Shown in pieces: positions 54,893 to 59,871 of a DNA stretch of 64,000 nucleotides. The notes beneath the pieces were generated by a model that worked only from the letters and a program-made list of their open reading frames with translations, was not told the origin of the DNA and ran no database searches. How positions within the stretch are numbered: the first letter of the stretch is position 1; each line of letters opens with the position of its first letter. Both the position numbers and the translations under genes were made by a program. The DNA is from an uncultured Ignavibacteria bacterium (GTDB lineage: Bacteria > Bacteroidota > Ignavibacteria > Ch128b), in assembly GCA_937944105.1 (NCBI GenBank), contig CALDZP010000028.1, positions 1 to 64,000 of the forward strand. The letters run 5' to 3'.

Positions 54893-56137
54893 ATGCATCG
54901 AAAAAGGGTTGTAGTGACCGGAATTGGGGCTGTGACCCCAATCGGTCTAAATATCAATGAATTCTGGAAAAATCTTATCGAAGGAAAAAGTGGAGCAGCT
55001 TTTATAACAAGATTCGACGCAAGTAATTTTGACACAAAATTCGCGTGTGAAGTAAAAAACTTTGACCCACTTAAGTACTTCGATAGAAAAACAGTTCAAC
55101 GTCTTGATATTTTTACTCAATTTGCTTTAGTTAGTACAGAAGAAGCAATCCAGAATTCACAATTAAAATTAGATGCAATTGATAAAAACAGAGTTGGAGT
55201 TGTATTTGGATCAGGAATAGGTGGAATGTGGACCTGGCATCATCAATCTGAAATTGTTTTTAAAGGTGGCGGTCCTCAAAAAATTTCACCATTCTTTGTT
55301 CCAATGATGATAAGTGATATTGCTGCAGGACATATTTCCATTAAATACGGTTTTAAAGGTTTAAACTATGCTACAACATCAGCTTGTGCTACTTCAGCTC
55401 ATGCAATTGCAGTAGGAGCAATGCATATACAAAGAGGTGATGCAGATGTTGTTATTGTTGGTGGTAGTGAAGCTTCCATTTGTCCTATGGGAATTGGTGG
55501 ATTTAATGCAATGAAAGCACTTTCAACTCGGAATGATCAGCCTGAGAAGGCAAGTAGACCGTTTGATAAAAATAGAGATGGCTTTGTGATGGGTGAAGGC
55601 TCAGCTACTTTGGTCCTGGAAGATTATGATTTTGCAATGAAAAGAGGTGCTCAAATTTTAGGCGAATTGGTTGGTATTGGTTTGACTGCTGATGCTTATC
55701 ATATAACTGCACCTGCACCTGGTGGTGAAGGTGCTGTAAGGTCAATGAGGCTATGTATTGAAGATGCTGGTATAAAACCAGAAGAAGTTGATTATATCAA
55801 TGCGCACGGTACATCAACTCCTTATAATGACAAGAATGAAACCGAAGCTATCAAAACGTTATTCGGTGAACATGCTTATAAATTGATTGTGTCTTCAACA
55901 AAATCTATGACAGGACATTTACTTGGAGCTGCAGGTGCAATTGAAGCGGTTGTTACCATCTTAACAATAATGAATGACATTATACCTCCAACTATTAATT
56001 ACGAAGAACCTGATCCTGAATGCGATTTAAATTATGCTCCTAATAAAGCAGTTGAAAGAAAAGTAAACTATGCCATTAGTAACGCATTCGGATTTGGCGG
56101 ACATAATGTGTCACTATTGTTTAAAAAGTTTCAATAA
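54893..56137 (+). CDS. fabF: 3-oxoacyl-ACP synthase II
   Basis: 414 residues. The active Cys is in TTSACATSAHAI; the two His are in NAHGTSTPYND and STKSMTGHLLGAAGA; the C-terminus has SNAFGFGGHNVSLLF. It elongates fatty acids by condensing acyl-ACP with malonyl-ACP. It lies 28 bases after acpP and 2 before the TTG of rnc. Confidence 0.97.
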   Translation: MHRKRVVVTGIGAVTPIGLNINEFWKNLIEGKSGAAFITRFDASNFDTKFACEVKNFDPLKYFDRKTVQRLDIFTQFALVSTEEAIQNSQLKLDAIDKNRVGVVFGSGIGGMWTWHHQSEIVFKGGGPQKISPFFVPMMISDIAAGHISIKYGFKGLNYATTSACATSAHAIAVGAMHIQRGDADVVIVGGSEASICPMGIGGFNAMKALSTRNDQPEKASRPFDKNRDGFVMGEGSATLVLEDYDFAMKRGAQILGELVGIGLTADAYHITAPAPGGEGAVRSMRLCIEDAGIKPEEVDYINAHGTSTPYNDKNETEAIKTLFGEHAYKLIVSSTKSMTGHLLGAAGAIEAVVTILTIMNDIIPPTINYEEPDPECDLNYAPNKAVERKVNYAISNAFGFGGHNVSLLFKKFQ

Positions 56138-56139
56138 AG

Positions 56140-56910
56140 TTGTTTATAGAAAAAATCCTTACACTATTTTTTAAGAAAAAGAAAAAAAAATTCGATAAGT
56201 TAATTGAGTACCGACTAATTAGAATAGAAAAATTAGTCGGTACTAAAATTAATAATCCCTATCTATATATTGAGGCTCTAACTCATCGTTCGGGTGTTAA
56301 TATCTCTCCACTTAGAAAAAAAATTTCCAATGAAAGACTTGAGTTTTTAGGAGATTCAGTCTTAAATCTCGTTGTGACAAAATATATTTTTTCAAAATTT
56401 ATTAACGAAGATGAAGGACAAATGACAATTTTACGCTCGAGATTTGTTAACAAAGATATTTTATTAAATGTAGCGAATAAATTAAAAATATCAGAATTAC
56501 TTTTTGTTAATGAAAATGCAGCCTCGGCTATAGAATCGGGGGCAAAGTCAATTCTTGTTGATTCTGTTGAAGCATTAATAGGTGCTATTTATCTAGATCT
56601 GGGGTTTGATGTTGTAAATAAATTTATTATGCGATATATCATCAAACCTAATATTAACTTAGTAAATGTTAAAGATCAGAATTTTAAAAGTCAATTGCTT
56701 GAATATGTTCAATCGAAAAAGCTTTCGTCTCCAAAATATGATGTGATTAAAGAAGAAGGACCACAACATGCTAAAAAATTTACAGTTCAGGTTTCCATTA
56801 ATGGAAAGCCACTAGGTATTGGTTCAGGCAACACAAAGAAAGCAGCTGAACAGTTAGCGGCTAAACAGGCAATTGAAAGCATTAAAAAAATTCTTGATAA
56901 TTCCAAATAA
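56140..56910 (+). CDS. rnc: Ribonuclease III
   Basis: 256 residues. The RNase III signature ERLEFLGDSVLNLVVTKYIF includes the catalytic acids, with VEALIGAIYLDLG as the second; a C-terminal dsRNA-binding domain ends with KKAAEQLAAKQAIESI. It cuts double-stranded RNA in rRNA and mRNA processing. The start is TTG, two bases after the fabF stop and without SD, so it depends on reinitiation. Codons 15-17 are AAA AAA AAA (56182-56190), and the following codons form a 14-bp perfect hairpin (56207-56244), features that may limit its own synthesis. Confidence 0.95.
   Translation: MFIEKILTLFFKKKKKKFDKLIEYRLIRIEKLVGTKINNPYLYIEALTHRSGVNISPLRKKISNERLEFLGDSVLNLVVTKYIFSKFINEDEGQMTILRSRFVNKDILLNVANKLKISELLFVNENAASAIESGAKSILVDSVEALIGAIYLDLGFDVVNKFIMRYIIKPNINLVNVKDQNFKSQLLEYVQSKKLSSPKYDVIKEEGPQHAKKFTVQVSINGKPLGIGSGNTKKAAEQLAAKQAIESIKKILDNSK
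56207..56244 (+). promoter_or_regulatory. Perfect 14-bp hairpin inside the rnc 5' coding region
   Basis: AGTACCGACTAATT (56207-56220) and AATTAGTCGGTACT (56231-56244) pair without mismatch around a 10-base loop. The duplex is long enough to approach an RNase III substrate and lies ~65 bases into the rnc message. E. coli rnc is autoregulated by cleavage of a leader stem-loop; this could be an intragenic equivalent. The coding sequence is intact through it. Confidence 0.55.
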
Positions 56911-56985
56911 TTTCATACCAAATTTTGACTTATACCTTTCTTATATTTGAAAAAAATATTTCCTTAAACAGTTGGAAAATAAACT

Positions 56986-59871
56986 ATGGAACAAAAAAAT
57001 TTATTCGAACAATTCTCCTCCCGTCATATTGGACCCAATTTCTCTGAAATAAATGAAATGATTAAGGAAATTGGGGTCGATTCTTTAGATCAATTAGTTG
57101 ACGAAACAATTCCTGAAAATATTAGATTCAGAGAAAGATTAAATTTATCTGAACCATTAACTGAACACGAATTTATTCAACACATAAAGCAAATTGCCTC
57201 AAAAAATAGAGTTTACCGTTCATACATTGGGCTTGGATATTATGGAACAATTGTTCCGAGTGTAATAAAGCGAAATATACTTGAAAATCCAGGATGGTAT
57301 ACTCAATATACTCCATACCAGGCAGAAATTTCTCAGGGCAGATTAGAAGCCCTTATGAATTTTCAAACAATGATTTCCGAGCTAACCCGATTGCCTATTA
57401 CAAATGCTTCGCTCCTTGATGAAGGAACAGCTTGCGGTGAAGCAATGAATATGCTTTATGCAATTTCACAATCTAAAAATCCTGATGCAAATATTTTTCT
57501 AGTTGATTCAAAAGTTTTTCCTCACACTATTGATGTTGTAAAAACGAGAGCAATTCCTCACGGAATAGAAGTAATAGTTACAAATGAGTTAGAACAAAAA
57601 TTAAATGAAAAAGTATTTGGAATTCTTGTTCAATACCCTGATGGTGATGGAGAGATACGGGATTATTCAAATTTATTCTTTAAAGCAAAGGAAAAAAATG
57701 TTTTAATTGTAGCTGCGGCTGATATAATGTCTTTGGTCCTCTTAAAATCTCCAGCAGAATTTGGTGCTGATGTAGTAGTAGGTTCAACTCAAAGATTTGG
57801 TGTTCCTATGGGCTTTGGTGGACCACATGCAGCATATTTTGCTACCAGAGAGGAATATAAGCGATTTGTACCTGGTAGGATCATTGGTTTATCTATTGAT
57901 CGTCATGGTGACCCAGCATATAGAATGGCTCTTCAAACAAGGGAACAACATATAAAAAGAGAAAAAGCAACGAGCAATATTTGTACAGCTCAAGTTTTAC
58001 TTGCGATTATGGCTTCAATGTATACGGTTTATCATGGACCAGAAGGATTGAAAAGAATTGCTAATAGAATTCATTTATTTACAAATTTTCTAAACCAAAA
58101 ACTTAAACAACTCGGATATAATCAAGTTAATAAATATTTCTTTGATACATTAAAAATTGATTTTAACTCAAGTCCCGAACTAATTGGTAGAATAAAAGCT
58201 CTTGCAGAACAAAAAAAGATTAATTTTAATTATTTCACTAAATGTTGTGTTGGAATTTCTCTTGATGAAACTGTTACTCTAAAAGATTTAAATGACATCT
58301 TAGAAATTTTTCATGAAGTCAAAGAAATCAATTTTGAACCAATTGAAAAAATTGAAAATATTGAAAGTAATTTGCCAGTCCAGTTTATCCGTCAAGATGA
58401 AATTTTACAACAAAAAGTTTTCAACTCTTATCACACCGAAACGGAGATGATGAGATATATTAGAATGCTTGAGTCAAGAGATTTATCCCTTAATTATGGA
58501 ATGATTCCACTGGGGAGTTGTACAATGAAATTGAATGCGGCAACTGAGATGTTAGCTTTATCCATGGATGAATTTGCCAATATCCATCCTTTTGTTCCAT
58601 CAGAACAAGCAGAAGGTTATTTGGAATTAATTAATGAACTAAGTAAAGACTTACTTGAAATTACTGGTTTCGATGGGATCTCATTACAACCTAATTCTGG
58701 TGCTCAAGGTGAATTTACTGGATTAATGGTAATTCGTGCATATCATCATTCAAGAGGAGAAAATCAGAGAAATGTAGTTTTAATTCCAGCTTCAGCTCAT
58801 GGAACCAATCCTGCAAGTGCTGTAATGGCTGGAAATAAAGTCGTGGTAGTGAATTGTGACGAGTCGGGCAATATTGATATAAGCGATTTGAAACAAAAAG
58901 CAGAAATGTTTAAGGATAAATTATCTGCATTGATGGTAACTTACCCTTCTACACATGGGGTATTCGAGGAAGAAATTAAGGAGATTTGTGAGATTATTCA
59001 TTTTTATGGTGGACAGGTTTATATGGATGGAGCAAACCTAAATGCTCAAGTTGGTTTGACCAAACCAAAATTAATTGGTGCTGATGTTTGTCACCTAAAT
59101 CTTCACAAAACTTTTGCAATTCCTCATGGAGGTGGTGGCCCTGGAATGGGACCAATTGTAGTCGCTAAGCATTTAGTTCCTTTTTTACCAAATCATAATT
59201 TTATTAAAACAGGTGGGGAAAAAGGAATAACTGCTGTTGCATCAGCACCTTTTGGAAGCGCAAGTATTTTGACTATTTCATATGCTTATATAAAAATGAT
59301 GGGTGTGGATGGATTAACACTTGCATCTCAAGTTGCAATCTTAAATGCAAATTATATCAAGGCAAAACTTGAAAAGTATTATAAGGTTCTTTATACAGGT
59401 AAAAGAAATAGAGTAGGCCACGAATTAATTTTTGATGTTAGGGAGTTTAAATATTCTGCAAATGTTGATGTAGAGGATATTGCGAAGAGGTTAATGGATT
59501 ATGGTTTTCATGCACCTACTGTATCTTTCCCTGTACCTGGCACACTGATGGTTGAACCAACAGAAAGTGAAAATAAAAAAGAACTTGATAGATTTTGTGA
59601 TGCAATGATTAAAATTAGAGAAGAAATTCATGAAATTGAAGTGGGGCTTATGGATAAAGAAGATAATCCACTTAAAAATGCACCGCATACTTTAAAGGAT
59701 TTAGTAAATGAAAATTGGACACACAAATATTCTCGCGAAAAAGCTGTCTTCCCAACAATATTTACACGAGTAAATAAATTTTGGCCGTATGTGTCTCGTG
59801 TCAATAATGCTTACGGAGATAGAAACTTAATTTGTACATGTGATCCAATTGAACTTTATATGGAAAGTTAA
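56986..59871 (+). CDS. gcvP: Glycine dehydrogenase (decarboxylating), P protein
   Basis: 961 residues: the single-chain form that fuses the P1 and P2 halves found as separate proteins in many bacteria. PLP-binding Lys is in [17 protein letters not shown] in the second half. The N-terminal half has [17 protein letters not shown]. It decarboxylates glycine and moves the aminomethyl group to the lipoyl H protein. gcvT and gcvH are not in the window. A TATATTTG box (56942-56949) lies 37 bases upstream, but without a well-spaced TTTG. The next gene follows by 1 base. Confidence 0.97.

Follow-up and report, generated by a model that had tools for sequence, protein, structure and literature searches.

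Why does a gene for RNase III carry, within its own codons, a stem of the kind that RNase III cuts? The question arises from rnc in the window, i.e. the whole stretch of DNA analysed here (64 kb of the 2.7-Mb genome G000, which consists of 96 contigs). A sequence-only reading of the window had described 14 paired bases free of mismatches inside rnc codons, and on recheck the hairpin was found exactly so. An explanation should account for its position, for its conservation in some relatives and absence from others, and for the features that lie around it.

The rnc locus and its hairpin

The open reading frame was identified as RNase III by a match to TIGR02191 (227 bits). Among the matches listed, its closest named relatives are Melioribacteraceae and Ignavibacteriae MAGs, with at most 48% identity, and G000 is accordingly described as Ignavibacteria-type. 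The inferred TTG start lies 2 nt past the fabF stop codon, and the two genes are probably on one transcript. The features of the locus are collected in Table 1. In the same genome, 23S rRNA was matched just as three pieces of its 3′ part (G000:C27:24996-25660, locus L218) and a search of G000 for 16S rRNA found none, which is probably due to an assembly gap.

Table 1. Coordinates of the features at the fabF–rnc locus, numbered along the window.
Feature	Positions	Strand	Remarks
fabF	54893..56137	+	upstream of rnc
rnc, RNase III gene	56140..56910	+	256 aa, inferred TTG start, stop included
A9 run	56182..56190	+	real, not conserved; judged to lie outside the element
Weak lower stem, 5′ side	56199..56205	+	7 predicted pairs with 56247-56253; not in relatives
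Hairpin 5′ arm, AGTACCGACTAATT	56207..56220	+	codons for E-Y-R-L-I; kept in G001, G002 and G003
Hairpin loop	56221..56230	+	10 nt, sequence not conserved
Hairpin 3′ arm, AATTAGTCGGTACT	56231..56244	+	codons for K-L-V-G-T; kept in G001, G002 and G003
Weak lower stem, 3′ side	56247..56253	+	pairs with 56199-56205

The two arms, AGTACCGACTAATT and AATTAGTCGGTACT, form 14 perfect Watson–Crick pairs that close the loop. The hairpin spans rnc codons 23–35 (+68 to +105) and lies about 70 nt downstream of the fabF stop. In G000 the lower stem would add 7 A-U-rich predicted pairs and bring the helix to 21 bp in total; the relatives lack it, and the argument is therefore built on the core of 12–17 bp. 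The predicted 64-nt fold has an energy of −22.8 kcal/mol (z −8.0), and no other perfect stem in the window with a loop of at most 30 nt is as long as the 14-bp stem. Dinucleotide shuffling gave an expectation of 0.033 perfect stems of at least 14 bp (loops of 3–30 nt) per 64 kb, against one observed. At this rate about one such stem per 2.7-Mb genome could be due to chance, so that the length by itself is just mildly notable. As judged from the sequences, the significance of the hairpin comes from its conservation and not from its length. No Rfam family matched the 64-kb window at the gathering score, and no intrinsic terminator (a G+C-rich stem followed by a T run) was detected in 55900-57100.

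Conservation of the stem in related genomes

The family comparison set consisted of five further genomes (G001–G005), which are all of the order that was sampled. Two are congeners of G000 (G001 and G002), one represents a sister genus (G003), and two belong to genus g3 (G004 and G005). Loss of the stem in close relatives had been named in the sequence-only reading as an outcome that would refute its proposal; instead, the stem is kept in both congeners and in the sister genus, i.e. in four species of two genera, at about 57–75% identity of the rnc proteins to RNase III of G000. In G002 13 pairs are kept. In G001 there are 12, and one T-A pair has become A-T through a change of TAC to AAC (Tyr to Asn) together with a change of ACT to TCT (Thr to Ser). 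G003 has a stem of 14 pairs (12 Watson–Crick and 2 G-U), of which one differs on both sides; its predicted fold contains 17 pairs. Helix length across the four species thus ranges from 12 to 17 bp.

Both g3 genomes, with rnc about 50% identical, lack the stem, and it was absent from 24 further rnc genes of the class in which it was looked for. A covariance-model search returned only the four known stems as strong matches. Other pairs of rnc genes of the class at comparable divergence have no conserved stem as strong, and there is no class-wide excess of hairpins at the same rnc site outside the two genera. Within this sample of sequences the stem is lineage-specific. A weak dip at offset −72 in the class scan may reflect the codons for Gly...Pro in the GYKINNP motif.

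Other structures occur in the N-terminal codons of some rnc genes. In a distant one, at L021 2137-2179 (−) and in the same codon region as the stem, the covariance model scored a weak match of 21.7 bits (E 0.025); it is an 8-bp stem, AAACCGAA...TTCGGTTT, which is missing from a congener (L015) that gave no match. The rnc gene of G004 (locus L006) has a different hairpin somewhat upstream in its N-terminal codons, TCACTAA...TTAGTGA with an inner GAAGA...TCTTC, of which G005 has just the inner part.

Probable selection beyond the protein sequence

Conservation of a stem inside codons could simply follow from conservation of the protein. In the rest of rnc, identical residues use the same codon in 45–55% of cases (0.45–0.55), against 0.50 expected under saturation. 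By this comparison of sequences the synonymous sites of rnc outside the stem are saturated, and the stem codons are nonetheless kept. Each protein was then held fixed and its codons were drawn at the codon usage of the window. The probability of pairing as good as that observed was 0.0006 for G000, 0.0013 for G002, 0.0009 for G003 and, for G001, 0.0089 when pairs are counted or 0.0019 when run length is used. These values are approximate in that the codon usage of the G000 window was applied to all four genomes. Several codons of the arms are rare, given as the fraction of their family in the window: CGA 0.14, CTA 0.09, GTC 0.11 and TAC 0.21. At the CGA site the g3 relatives have the arginine codon AGA, which is commonly used in the window. 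On these sequence comparisons, protein constraint fails to account for the conservation of the stem.

The stem was also compared with its surroundings by scanning 10 neighbouring genes (11.2 kb), aligned by codon across the four genomes, with a 12-pair window. The rnc stem ranked first by a wide margin: 45/48 of its pairs are Watson–Crick, and the best stems elsewhere reach 39 or fewer. None of the other nine aligned genes has a comparable conserved stem. The conservation case is built on n=4 sequences, some from assemblies of ungraded quality. It is very probable that the stem is under selection as RNA.

Possible roles of the hairpin

The explanation that we favour, with a probability of roughly 0.6, is that the hairpin is a self-cleavage site of RNase III within the rnc coding sequence by which the enzyme limits its own message. 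In this mechanism a compact, cis-acting RNA hairpin would form in the rnc message in the cell and RNase III would cut it. Such a cut, made within codons of rnc, would open the message and set off its decay, while the fab part of the transcript, which lies upstream, would stay behind. The resulting feedback would keep RNase III low.

Self-cleavage is considered the best explanation because there are precedents for it, because a 12-bp stem can suffice, and because the usual RNase III substrates are present. The gene that carries the hairpin itself encodes the enzyme that cuts such stems, and the element is a stem-loop in the rnc coding sequence, as an autoregulatory site of this type should be. 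A stem of 12 bp is enough for the E. coli enzyme to cut one strand (PMC8708148), and the helix here has 12–17 bp. The stem is kept beyond the needs of the protein in two genera. G001 and G003 have long pre-rRNA stems of the ordinary type, which indicates that the usual substrates of RNase III exist in these organisms; no sequence common to the hairpin and the pre-rRNA processing stems of G001 was seen. Some points stand against self-cleavage. Efficient double cutting usually needs roughly two helical turns; the conserved helix is shorter than this, and the lower stem that lengthens it is not shared. The stem is also lacking in g3 and in the rest of the class sample, as far as these sequences go, and covariation taken by itself falls short of significance with four sequences.

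RNase III of E. coli, S. aureus and Streptomyces is documented to control its own synthesis by cutting its message, and the place of the cut differs between them. In S. aureus, RNase III limits its own synthesis by cleavage within the rnc coding sequence, and the authors noted that the site is variable whereas the feedback itself persists (PMC3386247). Similar to the present case, the S. aureus site is a stem-loop in codons that is conserved among relatives (the staphylococci), with RNase III as the cutter in a negative feedback (PMC3386247); here the cutter is presumed. In contrast, the S. aureus stem is long and irregular, is cut at U+296 and is one of three hairpins, with cleavage shown both in vitro and in vivo (PMC3386247), whereas the stem described here is short and nearly perfect, lies at +68 to +105, and we infer its cleavage. 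For absB/rnc of S. coelicolor, the account in PMC10126417 describes self-cleavage within the coding sequence (Xu et al. 2008), with one site in a stem-loop in the rnc cistron of a polycistronic transcript. It differs by a second site upstream of rnc and by cuts reported in loops (PMC10126417), and the operon and lineage are unrelated. The E. coli system had been named in the sequence-only reading: RNase III cuts a leader stem of the rnc-era message (rncO) and thereby limits its own synthesis (PMC8708148), as we propose here. That stem belongs to the 5′ untranslated region (PMC8708148), whereas the present one is in codons.

Confirmation of cleavage would make the hairpin a new site for a type of control that is already known. 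An additional site that apparently arose independently, in a deep group of mostly uncultured members, would point to a general feedback whose site is evolutionarily mobile. More tentatively, the hairpin might be a young, lineage-specific feedback element that now shapes the protein, in that the Tyr to Asn and Thr to Ser replacements of G001 keep an RNA pair; self-control sites of RNase III would then come and go repeatedly at different positions of rnc. The hairpin is a short RNA with natural compensatory variants, which makes the proposal directly testable.

The most serious alternative, though we consider it clearly less probable than self-cleavage, is a selected mRNA element that acts independently of RNase III. 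It could be a barrier that guards the 3′ end of the fab message against decay from downstream, or it could slow early elongation of rnc. The position just past the fabF stop and just inside rnc would suit an element that separates the expression of the two genes, and all of the conservation evidence fits such a role equally well. However, no stem of this kind is conserved in the other nine genes of the alignments, and the choice of rnc as its host is better explained by RNase III itself.

It is improbable that the stem arose by chance and was kept by common descent and the protein sequence. The expectation of about one perfect 14-bp stem per genome is compatible with this, as is the small number of genomes. 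Over the four sequences 2 pairs are changed on both sides, 2 have one-sided changes to G-U and 8 are invariant, and the resulting covariation score was reached by 54/500 shuffles. Covariation alone is therefore not significant with four sequences. Of the checks suggested beforehand, that on synonymous sites showed constraint, and that on covariation yielded some two-sided changes that are not significant by themselves. Against chance stand the saturation of synonymous sites elsewhere in rnc, the retention of rare codons in the arms, and the status of the stem as an outlier among all stems scanned. When the partner arm was slid by one to three columns, the fraction of paired cells fell from 93% to 12–46%.

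Slightly less credible still is a role in DNA, in which the inverted repeat would serve as an operator bound by a dimeric protein and not as an RNA stem. Symmetric changes in both arms would suit the binding site of a dimer too, but two arm positions of G003 break the DNA symmetry and yet remain paired in RNA, since each is a G-U pair in the mRNA. There is no promoter-like site at the stem. The genomes of the genus contain no further copy: each has the core motif ACCGACTA...TAGTCGGT a single time, in rnc. The motif was found in 3/385 class genomes outside the family, compared with 12 genomes for a reversed-pattern control. A repeated or mobile element was rejected on these counts. A pattern scan of viral contigs gave 82 matches.

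The A9 run and the TTG start

The weakest explanation, to which we give hardly any credence, is programmed or accidental frameshifting on the A9 run with the hairpin as stimulator and a truncated product. The layout described in the sequence-only reading was confirmed, with the A9 run 16 nt before the stem and an early stop in both other frames (TAA at 56200 in one and at 56196 in the other), but slippage at the run, suggested as something that may truncate the product, is contradicted by the relatives: the run is A7 in G002, and G001 and G003 have no run of 7 or more, while all three keep the stem. A slippery run conserved alongside the hairpin, as expected for a −1 frameshift signal, is thus not seen, and such signals usually have a spacer shorter than the 16 nt present here.

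The TTG start had been taken as a weak start that adds to low expression. That view was abandoned, as TTG is the usual rnc start in the class: it is the first candidate start at the fabF–rnc junction in 24/30 class loci (L001–L030). Across the class, rnc thus seems to have a weak start.

Other RNA structures in the class scan

Of the local RNA structures that recur in the class scan, the strongest (mean z −1.48, with 35% of loci below −2) sits just before fabF, with the THRS codons of rnc about 1450–1500 nt further downstream, in L016, L018, L022, L024, L025 and L036. This is probably the acpP–fabF junction. A strong and distinct hairpin, GCCAATCACC...GGTGGTTGGC (z −5.9), was observed in L046, from an unrelated Bacteroidota MAG; it too lies among N-terminal codons of rnc, and the THRS codons follow about 120 nt later.
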